A stretch of 53,777 nucleotides of DNA. It comes from a virus. The stretch covers positions 1 to 53,777 of the IMG/VR virus record IMGVR_UViG_3300025161_000009, one strand, 5' to 3'. A program made the position numbers and the translations under genes. This document shows, piece after piece, positions 1 to 53,777 of this stretch (the stretch's first letter is position 1; every line of letters starts with the position of its first letter). Below the pieces are notes generated by a model. That model made no database searches and was not told the DNA's origin. It was given only the letters and a program-made list of their open reading frames with translations.

Positions 1-663
1 AGAGAAGGCATGTCTCCTCTCGACACAAGAGGGGCACCTTCCACAAGCAGGCATACTAAGACTACTCCCTTCATAGCAGGTCCATGTTAGGTGGTAGGGC
101 ACACCAATCTCAAGTCCTAACTTGACTATCTCCCACTTCATCCACCAAGAGAATGGAGTAATAAGACGTACTTTATGGTATGTCCCGATATAGATAGCAC
201 TGCCCATGGACCCAACAAACTCTGGGGTGCAGTCAGGATAAGCCCAATTCCGAGCATCCTCTGCATGGATCCCTGAGTAAACATACTCAGCATCTACAGT
301 CAAGGCGACAGCAGAAGCGATAGACAGGAAGATGGCATTTCTAAAGGGTACATAGGTGGGAGATACTCCAAAGGACTCTTCTATCTCCTTATAGGTCATG
401 TGAGGGTTAGGAAGCATCTCACCTACTAGAGTTGACTTAGCCCCTTGGAAGACCTTGGTATCAATTGAGATCTTCCGGTGGCTTTCTACATGGTAGTAGT
501 TGTTAATCATGTAGGCTGCCATTACCTCCCGCATCTTATGCTTCTGCCCGTAGTCAAAAGAGATAGTGGTTATGTCCCCAGGGTCAGTTCCATTAGCAAT
601 AAGGCTGCCTAGAACTGTGGCAGAGTCAAGCCCTCCAGATAGAAGTACTACCGCCTTAGCCAC
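1..663 (-). CDS. queC: QueC, 7-cyano-7-deazaguanine synthase (continues across window end)
   Basis: QueC converts 7-carboxy-7-deazaguanine to preQ0 using ATP and ammonia. Translation from a GTG at 663 begins MAKAVVLLSGGLDSAT, the N-type ATP-pyrophosphatase P-loop (SGGLDS). Near the window edge comes a four-cysteine zinc site, CYEG...CGRCPSCVERR. The GTG has a good ribosome site (GGGAGG) and overlaps the upstream transporter gene by 8 bp, so the pair is translationally coupled. The frame is still open at position 1. If position 53777 is joined to position 1, it continues for 11 codons (residues EDPIKY...) to a TGA at 53742. This gives about 232 residues, the normal QueC length, with the expected DPxxY C-terminus. 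Confidence 0.95.
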   Translation of the reverse strand, partial: MAKAVVLLSGGLDSATVLGSLIANGTDPGDITTISFDYGQKHKMREVMAAYMINNYYHVESHRKISIDTKVFQGAKSTLVGEMLPNPHMTYKEIEESFGVSPTYVPFRNAIFLSIASAVALTVDAEYVYSGIHAEDARNWAYPDCTPEFVGSMGSAIYIGTYHKVRLITPFSWWMKWEIVKLGLEIGVPYHLTWTCYEGSSLSMPACGRCPSCVERRHAFS

Positions 664-1231
664 CTGAAACCTCCCAAGGCATATAGACACCCCGGGTATG
701 GTCGATCTTCCGGATAGCCCAGACAACAGGCAAAGCGAGTAGGGTCATCCACATCTTCCCAACTACTTGCCCCAGTAGAAACTCAAGTGAGCCGAAAGCT
801 AAGAACAGGAAGACAGCAGAGTCAACTATAACTCCCACTGTGTTACTTGCGACTACTGCAAGGTACAAATTTTTCTTCTGGATGGGGGTGTAGACAACCA
901 GATCGAGCATCTCTGATACTAGGAATGCTCCACCTGATGCCAGAGCAATGGCAGGAGACAAAAAGGCAGATAGTACTGCACCTATAAGGATGGCAGCGCT
1001 TGACCACCCAGGTCCTTTACGCCTTTGCACAAGATCCCGTAAGGTAAAAGAAAGCCCCACTGCGAGTACTCCTGATGGAGCATACAACCCAAATCCAACA
1101 GGGATAACATAAGGGGGACCAGCCTCAGATGTAGGGGTACCTACATGAGTGATGAGGTAGTTGGCAAACCAGACAGTAGAAATGAAGAGTAGGAAGTAAA
1201 TCCAACCTTCAACATTCAGTTTCTTTTGCAT
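656..1231 (-). CDS. queuosine-precursor (preQ0) transporter, YhhQ/VUT family
   Basis: A 191-residue integral membrane protein with five to six hydrophobic segments. It resembles the VUT/YhhQ family, which imports queuosine precursors such as preQ0 and preQ1. Family-like features are the small-residue-rich segments (SPAIALASGGAFLVSEMLD) and a polar SNTVG segment before the last helices. Its place directly upstream of queC, with overlapping ends, supports a role in supplying 7-deazaguanine for phage DNA. The ATG at 1231 follows a GGAG site. The family assignment rests on composition, topology and context. A generic small transporter is the alternative, but the queC neighbourhood makes that less likely. 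Confidence 0.8.
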   Translation of the reverse strand: MQKKLNVEGWIYFLLFISTVWFANYLITHVGTPTSEAGPPYVIPVGFGLYAPSGVLAVGLSFTLRDLVQRRKGPGWSSAAILIGAVLSAFLSPAIALASGGAFLVSEMLDLVVYTPIQKKNLYLAVVASNTVGVIVDSAVFLFLAFGSLEFLLGQVVGKMWMTLLALPVVWAIRKIDHTRGVYMPWEVSGG

Positions 1232-1517: not shown

Positions 1518-2030
1518 CTAGCGGAACTTGGGCTTGTTATCCTTGTTGCCCTTGGAAGTAGGTTTTCTTGGAGTTTCCCCTGCAGATTTACTAGGAGTGG
1601 AACTAGGTTCAAAGGGAGGGTCCGACTCTAGGTAAAGTCGACTGACAGTGTTCTGGATTCTTCCATTCCTAATCTGGGTACCTACATCAGCAGTACAACC
1701 TAATCCAGCTAGCTGCGGGTAGATTAGAAAGTTAGTTTCCTCGTCAATCTCCAGGTCCAAGTCTACTGTCTCCTCGTCAATAACGCCTAGATCCAAGAAT
1801 TGCCGGTAAAGGTAGTACATAGATTTCTCAGTCAATCCATTAGTATACCATATCTTGCGCCCTGAGTACTCACCATCAGAGATAGTTAGTGTCCAGTTCA
1901 AATAGTAACTACCGGGCTTCTCGGATGACTCCCTTAGTTCTACAGATTCGATAGTCACAGGGTACTGCCCCTTAGGCAGGGGCTCAAACTCCTCAATACC
2001 TGAAAAGTCAAGATGAATAGTTGGGGACAT
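1518..2030 (-). CDS. DUF669-like recombination-associated protein
   Basis: 170 residues. The N-terminal 120 residues resemble the DUF669 family often found beside phage Sak4/RecA-like ATPases: an N-terminal acidic FSGIEEFEPLPKGQYPVTI start, then a beta-rich core with GRKIWYTNGLTEKS. The C-terminus is a Ser/Pro/Lys-rich disordered tail. It follows the Sak4-like gene by 10 bp in the same operon, which fits a single-strand DNA binding or annealing accessory role. The ATG at 2030 follows GGAGAAAC. The exact biochemical activity is not shown by the sequence. Confidence 0.6.
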   Translation of the reverse strand: MSPTIHLDFSGIEEFEPLPKGQYPVTIESVELRESSEKPGSYYLNWTLTISDGEYSGRKIWYTNGLTEKSMYYLYRQFLDLGVIDEETVDLDLEIDEETNFLIYPQLAGLGCTADVGTQIRNGRIQNTVSRLYLESDPPFEPSSTPSKSAGETPRKPTSKGNKDNKPKFR

Positions 2031-2040
2031 TTGTTTCTCC

Positions 2041-3012
2041 TTAGTTCTTACGGGTTGAGATAGTCATAGTTTTAGGCAGTTTAGTTTTAGACTTTTCTTC
2101 CTGTTGGGTCTCTTCTTGTGGGGTTTCTTCCTCCTTTTCTTCCTGTGGGGTTTCCACTTCTTCCACCTCTTTCTCTTGTGGGGTTTCCACTTCTTCTTCC
2201 TTAGAATTATAGGTCTGTGGAGTAGTATCTATTCTAAGGAGGTTGAGAATACTAGTGATAGTAGGATTCTCCAAATAGGAAGGGGCAATGACTCCATAGG
2301 GCATCCTCACTTTGGTGCGGATCTTTGCCTGGTTCTGGAGAAGTAAGTAGCGTGTTGTAACCAGGTTACCATCCTCATCCTGGGACTCCCCTAAAGCAAG
2401 GTAGGCGACCATCTCAAAGATTCCTGGAGCTTCATCTGCAAGGGCACCAGCAAGAGCAGGCTTCTTCACCCTGCCTTCCCGGGGGTCATCCTCATCTTTT
2501 GCCATACATGAGGCAAAGACATGAAGTGGGAGATCTCTGAACTTACGTAGTATCTTCCGCATTTGTACCAAGGCTATCCCGTAGTCCCCTTGCTCAAGCA
2601 GGTCTGGAATAGACCGGTTTCTAGTTGAGGATTCCAGTTGGTTGAGTAAAGCAAAGACATGAGACTCAGAAACTGAGTCAAGTCCCACTGAGTTGTATGG
2701 GTGCTTTCCAGACTTTAGCCAGTGGTAAGCATCATCAAAGTCAGACCAAGTCCGGATCTTGACAATGTCTATCTGAGGATTCCACCCGTCAAGGGTTGAG
2801 GTCCCACCCTCATAGTCAAGCAGTAACATGGGGTAAGTACGGGGATCATTCTGTGCAGTTCCGAGTAGATAGGTCTTCCCATGGCCAGATGGTCCAAAGA
2901 ACAAACATTTAGCGAGCCGGTTAGTTTCTGGGTGGGTCACCATAGGTATCTTAGAGACCCTCTCAGGAAGTGGATCCTGCTTTTTCTTACTAGAAATGGT
3001 TAGGGTAGTCAT
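2041..3012 (-). CDS. Sak4-like RecA-family ATPase (single-strand annealing/recombination)
   Basis: 323 residues with a RecA/AAA_24-type core: Walker A GPSGHGKT (about residues 40-47), LLLDYEGG and a Walker B-like VGLDSVS. This arrangement is typical of phage Sak4 proteins, which act in homologous recombination with an SSB-like partner. The last 60 residues are a low-complexity acidic repeat of ETPQE units, probably a flexible interaction tail. It sits between the Cas4/RecB-like nuclease and the DUF669-like gene, forming a recombination module with the RuvC-like resolvase further upstream. Confidence 0.75.
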   Translation of the reverse strand: MTTLTISSKKKQDPLPERVSKIPMVTHPETNRLAKCLFFGPSGHGKTYLLGTAQNDPRTYPMLLLDYEGGTSTLDGWNPQIDIVKIRTWSDFDDAYHWLKSGKHPYNSVGLDSVSESHVFALLNQLESSTRNRSIPDLLEQGDYGIALVQMRKILRKFRDLPLHVFASCMAKDEDDPREGRVKKPALAGALADEAPGIFEMVAYLALGESQDEDGNLVTTRYLLLQNQAKIRTKVRMPYGVIAPSYLENPTITSILNLLRIDTTPQTYNSKEEEVETPQEKEVEEVETPQEEKEEETPQEETQQEEKSKTKLPKTMTISTRKN

Positions 3013-49003: not shown

Positions 49004-51481
49004 CTATCCCTCCCATTTCTTAAGATGCCCCCAGCGGTCCCCCCATTCTAAGTCTACCTTGAAGGGTATCTCCCCAGGGTCAATAATCTGAATAGTTTCC
49101 ATAGTTTTAACCATCAGTGGGGCAACTTGGGGGACAAGTTCCTCCTTGCAGAGAACCATGATAGAGTCATGCACTAAGAATAGTATCCAGGCACCCTCTT
49201 TAGGAAGAAGAGCATGGAGCCTTACTGCAGAGTCCAGGTTGATATCCGATGCCAACCCCTGGATGGGAGTATTGACAGAACGCCTTTCTACGTCCCCTCT
49301 GTTCTTGTAGAAGATAAAGGGGAAGCGCCTACGCCTGCCTGTTGCTGATTCTACATACTTGTACTTATGGACAAACTCGTGCTGCTTCCTAATCCACTCC
49401 TTGAACCCAGGAGTACTATCTAGGATACCTTCTAGTATTTCCTCAGCCTGTTTTAGTGTCCAGGACTGGTTATACTCAGTTGCGAGTATCCTTGCCTCAA
49501 TACCCTCCACAAGAGATTTGGCACCACGTCCATAGAGTACCCCGAACCTGAGACACTTAGCAGCATACCGCTCACCTTTTGAGATCTGGTCTGCAGGCTT
49601 ACCAAAGACAAAGCTAGCAGATTCTGCATGGATATCTCTACCATCCTTGAAAATCTGGATCATGGTAGGATCTTGGGAGTAGAAGGCACCCACCCTAAGT
49701 TCGAGTTGAGAATAGTCTGCTAGCAGTAACTTGTACCCCGGGGGTGCGATATAGGCATCTCGGATTAGTGGCCCCATCAGCAAGGGTTGGTTTTGAGGGT
49801 TAGGGTCTCGGTAGGCTATCCGCCCTGTGTCTGTCCCATGGATCAAGACGTCAGGTCTAACCCTCCCATCTGGGTCTAGCCGGTTGAGCACACCCTCAAG
49901 GTAGGTTGAGATGACTACTCCAACCTGCCTGTAGTTTATGAGTGTCTCAATAAACTCACGGACCTCAGGTGACCAGTCATGCCCTCCTTTCTCAAGTTCA
50001 AGCGACAGTTCTGTCTTACCTGTAGAGGGGACCATAAAGCCCATGTCTTTGAGAACCTTCTTTACCTGGACATGGGAGCCTGGGTTGAAAGAAGGCACCC
50101 CATGAGCCTCAGCTATACGGGTAAGCGTCTCCTTGAGTGAGGCATGCTCAACCTTCTTCTCTGCAAGGAGCTCCTCCATGTAAGGGACATCTATTGGGAT
50201 GCCTGTCTTTTCTACCTCGCAGAACATTCTTGCCGCAGGGATAAGTTGCCTTTCAACTAGAGTTAGTAACTTAGGTGACTCCATCGGGAGTTCTTGATAA
50301 AGGTCTTTATACAACCTGAGTGTGAAGTAGACATCCAATGCCTGGTACTCATACATGGTCTGGTAGTCCCGCTCCTCCTCCGGCAGTTTGAAGAACTTCT
50401 TGAAGTCAAACCCATAGTGAGTATCATAGCGGACCCTAACTTGGGTCTTAAGGCTAGAAATGGAGTAACTCCTGCCTTTAGGGGCTTCTATACTGGGGTC
50501 ATCTCCTCCTATCCCCCTCTCATCCTGGGCATACTGCATTAGCATAGTATCTGCTATCCTTGGGGGCTGGATCTCCTCCTCCAACCACTTTTGGAGGAAC
50601 TGGAGATCGAACTTGAAATTGTGCATAACGAGGAGGTGCTTGTCAGATTTAAGTAGCCTCTTTACTGCACTCTTTACTTCAGGGTCCTGGGCACTACTAA
50701 AAGGTATGATGGCTGAGTATCCGATTAGGTTGGCCTCGTCAAGAAACACCCCAAACCCTAATGATATAGGTTGGTCATAGTAGTATGAGAACCCGGTAGT
50801 TTCTAAGTCGCAGGAGACAACAGGGAACTCATCCAGTGTATCTAGCAGGTTGATAATCTCTCCCTTCTCAGTACAGATAGCCACCTCAACCTGGGTAGGC
50901 TCCATAGGAGTATCCCTTGTAGCAAGTTTATAGGTATCAGATGCAAAGTCACGGAACAAGTCCCATCCCCGTAGTACCGCAGAAGGGTGGTAAGTTGCTA
51001 CTCCAAAGGCTTTGTAAGGCACTTCTACTAGATCCTCTTCACCTAAGACGGTCTGCATACCAAACTCTATCCATTGCCCCATGCCCTGGTTCTCTGAGAT
51101 CTTAGCAATCTTTCCAGGTGAGATCATTGCTTGAAGAGCAGTGCCTCCTAACATGAGTATCTTCCTAGGATTGACATCCATCAGTTCATTAATCAACCTA
51201 CCATTGCAAGCAAGTACTGCTTTAGGAGTGGGAGTAGCATTATCTGGAGGTCTGCACAGGCAGGCATTAGTGTAGTAGACCTCATTGGGGTCAATTCCTA
51301 CTGCCTTCAAAGTGTCCCTCAAGAGCTTTCCAGACTCACCTACAAAGGGCTTTCCCTGGAGTACCTCATTCCTGCCTGGGGCCTCACCTAAAGCAACTAT
51401 CCCGCCCTTCCTTCCGTACCCTAGAACAGGCGGACAGTCCCTCAGGGGACACTTCTCACAACCTGAGTAGTTATCTATCAT
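49004..51481 (-). CDS. uracil-DNA glycosylase fused to family-A DNA polymerase (825 aa)
   Basis: Residues 1-195 are a family-4 UDG: CEKC near the N-terminus, ALGEAPGRNE (30-39), GKPFVGESG, TNACLCRPP and YHPSAVL (164-170). Residues 220-380 form a 3'-5' exonuclease (CDLETTG with Asp225/Glu227, then MHNFKFDLQFL). Residues of about 400-825 are the polymerase, with ADYSQLELRV, AAKCLRFGVLYGRG and FLVHDSIMVL (motif C His-Asp). Both halves look intact. It replicates phage DNA while the UDG part probably removes uracil. The ATG overlaps the upstream stop (ATGA). Confidence 0.85.
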   Translation of the reverse strand: MIDNYSGCEKCPLRDCPPVLGYGRKGGIVALGEAPGRNEVLQGKPFVGESGKLLRDTLKAVGIDPNEVYYTNACLCRPPDNATPTPKAVLACNGRLINELMDVNPRKILMLGGTALQAMISPGKIAKISENQGMGQWIEFGMQTVLGEEDLVEVPYKAFGVATYHPSAVLRGWDLFRDFASDTYKLATRDTPMEPTQVEVAICTEKGEIINLLDTLDEFPVVSCDLETTGFSYYYDQPISLGFGVFLDEANLIGYSAIIPFSSAQDPEVKSAVKRLLKSDKHLLVMHNFKFDLQFLQKWLEEEIQPPRIADTMLMQYAQDERGIGGDDPSIEAPKGRSYSISSLKTQVRVRYDTHYGFDFKKFFKLPEEERDYQTMYEYQALDVYFTLRLYKDLYQELPMESPKLLTLVERQLIPAARMFCEVEKTGIPIDVPYMEELLAEKKVEHASLKETLTRIAEAHGVPSFNPGSHVQVKKVLKDMGFMVPSTGKTELSLELEKGGHDWSPEVREFIETLINYRQVGVVISTYLEGVLNRLDPDGRVRPDVLIHGTDTGRIAYRDPNPQNQPLLMGPLIRDAYIAPPGYKLLLADYSQLELRVGAFYSQDPTMIQIFKDGRDIHAESASFVFGKPADQISKGERYAAKCLRFGVLYGRGAKSLVEGIEARILATEYNQSWTLKQAEEILEGILDSTPGFKEWIRKQHEFVHKYKYVESATGRRRRFPFIFYKNRGDVERRSVNTPIQGLASDINLDSAVRLHALLPKEGAWILFLVHDSIMVLCKEELVPQVAPLMVKTMETIQIIDPGEIPFKVDLEWGDRWGHLKKWEG

Positions 51482-51870
51482 GGCTTCTCCTTTGGGTTCT
51501 TCTTACAAACTCCAGAATCAGAAGGTCTTGATAATCCAAAGTACGCCCTTACCTTGAGCCCACAGTACTCACATCTATAAGTTTCGGTTAGATCTGAATG
51601 GGTTACTAGGTTATCTCTAACCCACTTATGAGGTCCAAAACTCTCATTTGGGTTAGCCCCTGCATATTTTATCTTGCCTCCAGGCAAAGTTATAGTATAA
51701 CCCAGTCCAGGGAATCTGGTACAGACACTCTTTAGCCAGTATACTGCCTCAGAAGGTGTCTGAAAAACCCTCACTGTACCCTTAGTAGTATAGAAGTAGT
51801 CTCTAGAGTCCTCATCCTGTAGGGCATATTTGCCTTTATATGGTACTACTTTTACCTTGATACTAGTCAT
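51478..51870 (-). CDS. small protein with C-terminal zinc motif (130 aa)
   Basis: The start is ATG at 51870 (MTSIKVKVVPYKGKYALQDEDS) following GGAGGG; a longer upstream start at 51909 is less likely. The N-terminal half is beta-rich. The C-terminus has CEYCGLKVRAYFGLSRPSDS with a later Cys-Lys-Lys, a likely zinc knuckle. It overlaps the polymerase ATG. Function unknown; a role beside the polymerase is possible. Confidence 0.55.
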   Translation of the reverse strand: MTSIKVKVVPYKGKYALQDEDSRDYFYTTKGTVRVFQTPSEAVYWLKSVCTRFPGLGYTITLPGGKIKYAGANPNESFGPHKWVRDNLVTHSDLTETYRCEYCGLKVRAYFGLSRPSDSGVCKKNPKEKP

Positions 51871-52036
51871 TACTATCACCCTCCAGATACAAGAAGATAC
51901 CAAAACCAATACTAGGAGACAGAAGGCATACTAGTAATGGTTTCATCCCCAAGGATACTAGAACTAGACCTACAAAGGTAACTGAAACTAGTATCTTGAA
52001 GTAAACCTTCAAATTGTCCCACCAGCTTTCCTCCAT
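51863..52036 (-). CDS. tiny two-helix membrane protein (57 aa)
   Basis: MEESWWDNLKVYFKILVSVT is followed by two hydrophobic stretches (VTFVGLVLVSLG and PLLVCLLSPSIGFGIFLYL). The ATG at 52036 is immediately before the DpdA stop region; the stop overlaps the next gene's start by 8 bp. A small single-operon membrane protein with unknown role, matching a second one at 52840-53016. Confidence 0.5.
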   Translation of the reverse strand: MEESWWDNLKVYFKILVSVTFVGLVLVSLGMKPLLVCLLSPSIGFGIFLYLEGDSND

Positions 52037-52843
52037 TTATACAACTCCATTAGTTATAGAGTCAAAGATGCTAGTATTATGCCTAGCTATCTCCAGCCCC
52101 TCAGGGGTAAACTCATAGTGAAAGTAGTTCTCAGGGCGCCTCGGGTACTCAGGTACTACAGAAGTCACAGGATCCAAGGCAATCTGGGAGGTAGCATAGA
52201 CAAGAGGCTTAGCAGAGTCAATAGAACGGATTCTACCACCAAAGTCCTCTGCTATCTTTTTATATGCCCACAGATCACGCCCCCACCCAAGGAGATGGAT
52301 ATCTGCATGGTAGTAGTCAGCCCAAGGGATTACATAGTCTTTGATAATCCGGTAAAGACCCCCATCAAATATCTCATAGTCTTTTGAGACCCCTAGAGTT
52401 ATTCCCTTACTTAGAAGTAAGGGAGATTCCCTTCTTACCATCTCTATAACAAGCCCCAAGGTATGTAGGCATGCAGAGAAGTCCTCCTCATCCTTACCTT
52501 GGGGGACAAGCATCCAGTGATAAGGGTACAGCGACTTTGTCAGTTCCAGGAATGAGTTAAGAGCCATAGTTGAGGTAGCTAGTCCGTCAAAGAGCTTGTC
52601 TGGTATAACGATCTCTGATGCCCCTACCTGAGGTGCTAACTCAAGTAATCTCTGGATAGGTTGCCCCACCTTAAACTCATGGGCAGAGTTGTCCAAGATA
52701 ATGTGAGACCCATTTTCTGACTCTGACTTGTAAAACTCTCTATAGTCAGATGATAACTCTACCAGGTGGGCAAGGATAAGGTGGTAGTCCCTACCTTTTG
52801 CTAACTCAAGGTGCTTGATAGGGGGGATTATAGTGGATTTCAT
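52037..52843 (-). CDS. dpdA: DpdA-like 7-deazaguanine DNA transglycosylase (268 aa)
   Basis: A TGT-superfamily enzyme that would exchange guanine in DNA for a 7-deazaguanine base. Visible features: an ILDNSAHEF segment (Asp51), a TIM-barrel strand order, HADIHLLGWGRDLW, and SIDSAKPLVYA near the end, all fitting the TGT/DpdA group. The ATG at 52843 overlaps the upstream stop as ATGA; a start at 52879 is less likely. It lacks the zinc-binding tail of tRNA TGT, which favours the DNA-type short phage forms. The adjacent queC and queF genes support the assignment. Whether it uses preQ0 or preQ1 is not shown. Confidence 0.8.
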   Translation of the reverse strand: MKSTIIPPIKHLELAKGRDYHLILAHLVELSSDYREFYKSESENGSHIILDNSAHEFKVGQPIQRLLELAPQVGASEIVIPDKLFDGLATSTMALNSFLELTKSLYPYHWMLVPQGKDEEDFSACLHTLGLVIEMVRRESPLLLSKGITLGVSKDYEIFDGGLYRIIKDYVIPWADYYHADIHLLGWGRDLWAYKKIAEDFGGRIRSIDSAKPLVYATSQIALDPVTSVVPEYPRRPENYFHYEFTPEGLEIARHNTSIFDSITNGVV

Positions 52844-53016
52844 AGCCCCTCCAGTAAAGGTATTCTGAGTACAACCCATATAGTTAGGATGCTCCCAACT
52901 ATACCAGCAATGAAAAGAACCACCTGGAGTTTCTTAGTAGGCATAAAGGGGGATACCAGTAGCATACTAAATGATAGGAACCCAAAGGCAAGTAGTAGTA
53001 CTAAAGTTTCTAACAT
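52840..53016 (-). CDS. tiny two-helix membrane protein (58 aa)
   Basis: MLETLVLLLAFGFLSFSMLL and a second helix (LQVVLFIAGIVGSILTIWVV), with MPTKK between. The start is ATG at 53016 after AAGGAG. It is placed between the MazG-like gene and dpdA; its TGA overlaps the dpdA ATG. Role unknown, perhaps with the transporter. Confidence 0.5.
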   Translation of the reverse strand: MLETLVLLLAFGFLSFSMLLVSPFMPTKKLQVVLFIAGIVGSILTIWVVLRIPLLEGL

Positions 53017-53020
53017 GTTG

Positions 53021-53302
53021 TCATTTCTCCTTAACTTTGATATAAGCAAGTAGGAACCCAGCATAGTTCAGAATATCCTGTGCCTCTTCAACTACCTTGT
53101 TTAGGTTCCCAGCCATCTCGTACCCTACAGAACGGGCTGCCTTAGTAAAGATAATTCCTAGTAGGTCTTGTTCTCCGTGAGGCCACATAGCAGTTATGGG
53201 GAGAAATGAATTCTCCCCATTCTCAGACTGCTCAGTGACCCTACTCATTGCTCTCTCGATCTCATCTCTGAAGACCTTGAGAAAAGTAGCGTCATCTACC
53301 AT
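53021..53302 (-). CDS. MazG-like helical protein (93 aa)
   Basis: The C-terminal EEAQDILNYAGFLLAYIKVK segment resembles the acidic helix of MazG/all-alpha NTP pyrophosphatases and related DUF1599-type proteins. The N-terminal half has DEIERAMSRVTEQS and a TAMWPHGEQDLLGI loop. A nucleotide-cleaning role before DNA synthesis would fit the operon but is only inferred. The ATG follows GGGGGA. Confidence 0.5.
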   Translation of the reverse strand: MVDDATFLKVFRDEIERAMSRVTEQSENGENSFLPITAMWPHGEQDLLGIIFTKAARSVGYEMAGNLNKVVEEAQDILNYAGFLLAYIKVKEK

Positions 53303-53310
53303 TCTTCCCC

Positions 53311-53745
53311 CTAAATCTCTAGTGTGAGGTTCTGGACAAGATCTAAATAGCGACTGGCAACTACTGTTATGGCGATTCCACCTCTTGGCTTGAATACTCC
53401 AGTCACTTTTACATGGACAGGGGCAACCTCCTTCATAAAAAAGTCAGCAATCTCATTGATAATCTTCTCATGGAATGCCCTTTCATTTCTGAAGGACCAC
53501 AAGTACAGTTTCCAGGACTTGGACTCTACAATCTTTTCTACTGGGGAGTACTCAACAGTGATAGAAGCAAAGTCGGGTTGCCCAGTTACTGGACACAGGC
53601 AAGTAAACTCGTCTGAATGAAGGGTGATGGTACAGTGTTTACCAAACGCTGGGTTAGGGAAGCATTCTATCTGCTTCATAGGCTCAAGAACCTTATTACC
53701 TAGTATAGTTAGAGTGGGGTATTCAGGGTTTATGGCATTGCTCAT
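53311..53745 (-). CDS. queF: QueF, NADPH-dependent 7-cyano-7-deazaguanine reductase
   Basis: 144 residues, the short QueF type. The catalytic centre is TCLCPVTGQPDFA (Cys51, Asp58). The NADPH-binding QueF motif ESKSWK is at 74-79, followed by LYLWSFRNE, FHEKIINEI (His92, Glu93) and a PRGG loop. It reduces the nitrile of preQ0 to the aminomethyl of preQ1. The intact QueF motif favours true reduction over the archaeal QueF-like amidinotransferase. The ATG overlaps the queC TGA (ATGA) when the window ends are joined. Confidence 0.93.
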   Translation of the reverse strand: MSNAINPEYPTLTILGNKVLEPMKQIECFPNPAFGKHCTITLHSDEFTCLCPVTGQPDFASITVEYSPVEKIVESKSWKLYLWSFRNERAFHEKIINEIADFFMKEVAPVHVKVTGVFKPRGGIAITVVASRYLDLVQNLTLEI

Positions 53746-53777
53746 CTTAAATTCTCCTTGTACTTTATAGGATCTTC
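53742..53777 (-). CDS. queC: QueC C-terminal 11 codons (completion of the gene at 1-663)
   Basis: Reading from 53777 downward gives GAAGATCCTATAAAG and further codons (EDPIKYKENLR, then TGA 53744-53742). Joined to the open frame ending at position 1 (CVERRHAFS), it gives a normal QueC C-terminus with DPxxY. This supports circularity or circular permutation of the molecule. Confidence 0.85.
   Translation of the reverse strand, partial: EDPIKYKENLR

Follow-up and report, generated by a model that had tools for sequence, protein, structure and literature searches.

The 7-deazaguanine operon of a lytic tailed phage has probably moved from de novo synthesis of its precursor to salvage, and would yield DNA carrying dPreQ1. 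The genome, referred to here as the window, is the whole 53,777-base stretch of IMG/VR record IMGVR_UViG_3300025161_000009. It carries genes for a YhhQ-type transporter, QueC, QueF and a DpdA-like transglycosylase, and FolE, QueD and QueE are absent. The operon most likely serves to swap guanines in the phage DNA for a 7-deazaguanine-type base that evades host enzymes. The setting recurs in separate lineages, and the phage appears to trade biosynthesis of an anti-restriction base for uptake, in which case modification would depend on precursor released by the host or by neighbours.

The break in the record falls inside queC. The record is a circular permutation, because QueC runs through the join, its TGA overlapping the ATG of QueF. 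The record encodes a terminase, portal, head protease, tape measure, primase, helicase and DNA polymerase A, and no integrase was noticed among the subset of window ORFs scanned; it is thus likely to be the full genome of a lytic tailed phage. An artefact of an incomplete window was ruled out by the reading of QueC through the join and by the presence of packaging, tail and replication genes. Across the join, the gene order is YhhQ-QueC-QueF-ORF93-small membrane protein-DpdA-small membrane protein, with all genes on the minus strand, overlaps between YhhQ and QueC and between QueC and QueF, and plausible Shine-Dalgarno sequences before YhhQ, QueF, ORF93 and DpdA (Table 1). A sequence-only reading had proposed an operon of DpdA-like, QueF, QueC and transporter genes across 52037-53777 and 1-1231, and this is confirmed by family matches and the circular reading. 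No preQ1 riboswitch or other element was matched in an Rfam search.

Table 1. Positions of the operon genes, the borders of the conserved block and related features in other contigs.
Sequence	Position	Strand	Feature	Basis
Window	1518..3012	-	SSB-like (2030-1518) and ATPase (3012-2041), left border of conserved block	Order kept in relatives
Window	656..1231	-	YhhQ/QPTR-type transporter, 191 aa, 'short' subfamily	PF02592
Window	1..663	-	QueC 5' part, GTG start at 663	PF06508, TIGR00364
Window	53742..53777	-	QueC 3' end (EDPIKYKENLR-stop), TGA overlapping QueF start	Circular translation
Window	53311..53745	-	QueF, NADPH-dependent preQ0 reductase, unimodular type II	TIGR03139
Window	53021..53302	-	ORF93, small helical protein	Conserved in relatives
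Window	52840..53016 (ORF opens at 53064)	-	Small membrane protein, 58 aa	Hydropathy
Window	52037..52843 (ORF 52879-52037, likely start 52843)	-	DpdA-like DNA-guanine transglycosylase, 268 aa	Fold and profile
Window	51863..52036	-	Second small hydrophobic protein, 57 aa	Translation
Window	49004..51481	-	DNA polymerase A, right border of conserved block	PF00476, PF03167, PF01612
L107	7315-8004		Cysteine-rich CxxCxxCC-like protein
L109	4557-5249		Cysteine-rich CxxCxxCC-like protein
L011	9218-9934, 9915-10643		Cysteine-rich CxxCxxCC-like proteins
L334	10528-11262		Cysteine-rich CxxCxxCC-like protein
L334	6134-6469		Short protein between QueF and YhhQ	By eye
L097	5297-6501		YhhQ and DpdA-motif protein
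L098	7049-8528		YhhQ and DpdA-motif protein
L104	12527-14226		YhhQ and DpdA-motif protein
L099	5001-6162		YhhQ and DpdA-motif protein
L196	3-1193		Bacterial DpdA-like protein	21.9 bits

QueF scores 138.2 bits against TIGR03139 (type II preQ0 reductase, cut-off 86.9). In the alignment to the solved QueF 4f8b (E 8e-27), the CPxTGQPDF, ESKSxKLY (NADPH motif) and FHE motifs are all intact, the catalytic Cys and Asp are present, and the protein classes as a unimodular preQ0 reductase. Identity as a QueF-like archaeosine synthase was rejected, the match to 5jyx (E 2e-4) being far weaker. The earlier prediction of preQ1-type DNA from intact reductase motifs stands as a prediction, although QueF alone is no proof of dPreQ1. 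QueC matches PF06508 with 181 bits and TIGR00364 above the cut-off, and includes the signature motifs (PMC13329287) SGGLDS (P-loop), YGQKH, VPFRN and YPDC as well as CxxCxxC-type zinc cysteines; YxQxHxxE occurs as YGQKHxxR, differing in the last position. Co-acquisition of QueC with YhhQ from bacteria was also rejected, as the window QueC is related at 59% to that of phage contig L010 and at no more than 38% to alphaproteobacterial QueCs.

The DpdA-like protein has no curated TGT or DpdA match in Pfam or NCBIfam and matches only PHROGs of unknown function. A profile built from 40 of its relatives matches the solved DNA-guanine transglycosylase 7ui4 (E 1e-4) in the HLLG and IDSxxP segments, and an AlphaFold2 model from a 45-sequence alignment (pLDDT 96.5) matches tRNA-guanine transglycosylases, including a preQ1 complex (Foldseek E 2e-7; VIA Z 16.5 over 230 residues). 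Of the two proteins whose families were to be checked by profile, QueF is recognised directly; DpdA is missed by Pfam and NCBIfam and is reached through its own-family profile and its TGT fold. Residues D51, N52, E56, P81, D82, Q115, H183, G186 and D209 are invariant in the family, and their order, as judged from sequence rather than by superposition, appears to resemble that of the TGT catalytic motifs. We consider the protein a probable DpdA-type transglycosylase that would work like DpdA. Its family lies near QueC in most of the 80 contigs found with QueC. A 2023 paper on further phage 7-deazaguanines, cited by others, may name this subfamily. A search for the host via related genomes did not find the DpdA clade in the genome collection. 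The neighbouring DNA polymerase A includes an N-terminal domain of the uracil-DNA-glycosylase family (PF03167, 92 bits) with a cysteine-rich start, and the N-terminus in L010 is similar.

The transporter scores 46.5 bits against PF02592 (cut-off 27.2) and 47.3 against TIGR00697, slightly below the cut-off of 50.95, and matches PHROG 4899 with an E of 1e-36. No solved relative was found by sequence. It is related at 53% to Rhizobium phage proteins, and its 'short' subfamily is also found on alphaproteobacterial chromosomes.

Two small membrane proteins and a MazG-like protein had been described as interleaved with these genes. The small hydrophobic proteins were found, the one upstream of DpdA with two hydrophobic stretches, but the MazG label for ORF93 is unsupported, with no match in Pfam, PHROGs or NCBIfam. 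ORF93 is retained in the Que operon of L010, L019, L107 and L109. Its only Pfam hint is a weak, sub-threshold one in relatives, to PF07659 ('nucleotide modification associated domain 1'), and its structure model reaches a pLDDT of only 73.

Six-frame searches of the window gave no match to FolE (PF01227), QueD (PF01242), QueE (PF04055, radical SAM) or FolE2 (PF02649), and positive controls in known genomes were detected. Early genes hidden elsewhere in the window are thereby ruled out, and the absence of FolE, QueD and QueE, noted previously, is borne out and extends to FolE2. That CDG must then come from the host, or preQ0/preQ1 by import, was a reasonable deduction, and it is strengthened by relatives that have the full pathway and by the association of the loss with YhhQ.

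Viral contigs were scanned first with QueC (80 loci) and next with the DpdA subclade (45 loci); most of the relatives are fragments. The recurring order is ATPase, SSB-like, Que genes, DpdA and PolA. This block is spanned in 70 dereplicated viral-contig clusters, nearly all with QueD and QueE, and this retention excludes chance. FolE, QueD and QueE are all absent in three of four clusters with YhhQ (the window, L011 and the L107 group) versus none of 66 without it. The chance that three all-absent clusters would all fall among the four with YhhQ, computed by hand, is 4/54,740, a figure that takes no account of kinship among clusters or of the test having been prompted by the window itself. L127, considered as a loss without YhhQ, was ruled out, as the full contig carries QueD, QueE and FolE.

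The arrangements form a stepwise series (full pathway; full pathway with transporter; no early genes; no QueC) that makes the role of phage YhhQ testable. In L010, the closest relative, there is no YhhQ, and QueD-QueE-FolE are placed between ORF93 and DpdA. L019 contains YhhQ together with the full pathway and is possibly an intermediate state. In L107 and L109, YhhQ, QueF and DpdA are left and QueC has also gone. A further scan was led by the other YhhQ subfamily, not that of the window, so that some relatives were ascertained through YhhQ. Among its contigs with this DpdA family, L334/L335 and L361 contain YhhQ, QueC and QueF, L341 and L344 contain YhhQ and QueC, and L348 contains YhhQ only; none of these includes FolE, QueD or QueE within the stretch read. 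YhhQ does not force the loss, since it coexists with a full pathway in L019 and in the Queuovirinae.

In YhhQ-bearing phages with a reduced pathway, a cysteine-rich CxxCxxCC-like protein is encoded directly upstream of DpdA (Table 1); it is absent from the window, and one L011 copy matches PF03692 above the cut-off. The short protein between QueF and YhhQ in L334 looks like a degenerate QueF/T-fold paralogue. A further viral contig, L317, has QueF and YhhQ with no QueC, QueD, QueE, FolE or recognised DpdA at the locus.

In a well-supported PolA tree, the window pairs with L010, and L011 lies outside L019 and the L107 group. A larger DpdA tree requires seven changes for YhhQ and seven for QueE, and the trees place early-gene losses on several separate branches. 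Supported independent pairs agree in 4 of 4 cases, too few for significance (p 0.125). By blastp, the YhhQ of the window shows almost no similarity to the L011/L019 type, the two being unrelated subfamilies; at least two acquisitions of YhhQ are therefore probable. We read these patterns as suggesting that de novo synthesis was repeatedly replaced by salvage in separate lineages. We found no published description of a YhhQ-linked loss of the early arm.

Under the salvage explanation, YhhQ would provide the infected cell with an imported 7-deazaguanine precursor, or supplement the host supply. QueC would turn any CDG/ADG into preQ0, QueF would reduce preQ0 to preQ1 with NADPH, and DpdA would exchange guanines in the phage DNA for preQ1. 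The resulting dPreQ1 would block host restriction enzymes. FolE, QueD and QueE would have become dispensable after precursor import and then been lost.

Import of preQ0 or preQ1 would make QueC superfluous, yet the window and most of the reduced relatives keep it, which hints at a possible unrecognised transport substrate. A sub-case of salvage, its likelihood overlapping with that of salvage at large, is therefore tentatively considered, namely that the short YhhQ imports CDG or 7-amido-7-deazaguanine rather than preQ0 and that QueC is the first enzyme after uptake. YhhQ and QueC occur without the early arm in the window, L011, L334, L341, L344 and L361. Bacterial relatives of the window YhhQ are widespread, mostly in Alphaproteobacteria (281 genome stretches), and in 51 of 80 genomic loci the gene is no more than 3 kb from queC. 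All 23 tested genomes with YhhQ near queC contain TGT, and the QueCs tested are canonical. By one six-sequence profile, QueE has no match in 15 of the 23 and a strong match in only 7, and this reliance on a single profile weakens the case for bacterial QueE absence. A PTPS (QueD-family) domain is lacking altogether in six of the 23, and of the other QueD-like matches that were examined, most scored weakly with the phage QueD profile. Taken together, these features suggest, as a hypothesis, that a substrate of QueC (CDG or the amide) is imported. If true, this would also account for bacteria that have YhhQ and QueC in the absence of QueE, and YhhQ-QueC-QueF-DpdA would be a complete QueC-dependent salvage route, its first two steps common to many Alphaproteobacteria. 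However, CDG/ADG transport by the YhhQ family is not reported in PMC11130926 or PMC5372724. Nor could this route cover all cases, as the L011-type YhhQ differs in subfamily and L107 has no QueC; retention of QueF without QueC in L107 and L109 fits preQ0 as the cargo of their YhhQ type. In several of the YhhQ-queC genomes, weak second TGT-domain matches were also seen.

The main rival to salvage, which we judge rather unlikely, is that CDG is made by host FolE, QueD and QueE and drawn toward preQ1 by phage QueC and QueF, with YhhQ a minor supplement; the early genes would then have been lost through host supply and not through import. The retention of QueC and QueF while the early arm was lost as a unit is in keeping with this, as is the presence of the Q pathway in most hosts of DpdA phages (PMC6884629). 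However, host supply alone does not predict that the triple loss occurs only together with YhhQ, and QueC is lost too in L107 and L109. Very improbable is a role in raising preQ1 for host tRNA queuosine during infection, with DpdA acting on tRNA or irrelevant: DpdA has a TGT fold and boosting of Q has been proposed for phages without DpdA (PMC6884629), but in nearly all relatives the family is found next to genes for DNA polymerase and replication, the profile links the protein, only 268 aa long, to a DNA-guanine transglycosylase and not to tRNA TGTs, and others have found DNA to be modified in the DpdA phages they tested (PMC6884629).

Salvage leading to dPreQ1 can be set beside known systems. 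Phage DNA with 7-deazaguanines, DpdA and QueF-dependent dPreQ1 are established, and YhhQ has been reported in phages with the remark that it has no correlation with any phage group (PMC6884629). One operon of Streptococcus phage Dp-1 (NC_015274) combines, as in the window, QueF and QueC with a queuosine-precursor transporter and a transglycosylase. Dp-1 differs in that QueD, QueE and FolE are present too, the transporter carries the annotation QueT rather than YhhQ, and the transglycosylase has been described as a DpdA of the 9g type (PMC6884629). dPreQ1 was measured in Dp-1 DNA (PMC6884629). Systems likened to that of the window also occur in Seuratvirus, Enterobacter phage EC151, Queuovirinae such as Vibrio phage VpKK5, and Aminobacter phage Erebus. 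In these phages, an ATPase and a DUF669/SSB-like gene are followed shortly by YhhQ, then deazaguanine genes, DpdA and a polymerase (PMC8310023). Unlike the window, these have the full FolE-QueD-QueE-QueC set and no QueF was seen, and their DpdA is unmatched by the window-family profile. EC151, with its full pathway, has a YhhQ proposed to increase preQ0 (PMC8310023).

The closest named DpdA relatives (28-29%), in Bacillus phage BSP7 and Weizmannia phage Youna2, also lie beside DNA polymerase A with QueC present, but these phages have the full pathway, and QueF and YhhQ are not annotated. DpdA-only phages (group 3, PMC6884629) may likewise use exogenous precursors, and some phages carry YhhQ; group 3 differs from the window in having neither QueC nor QueF. 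In Rhizobium, Pseudanabaena and Mycobacterium phages, YhhQ is accompanied by a 200-230 aa protein with DpdA-like motifs (DNG, PD, DS) that is unmatched by the DpdA profile, and no pathway genes were found by profile in the four stretches concerned (L097, L098, L104 and L099). A bacterial DpdA-like protein is encoded near chromosomal YhhQ and QueC in Rubellimicrobium roseum (L196).
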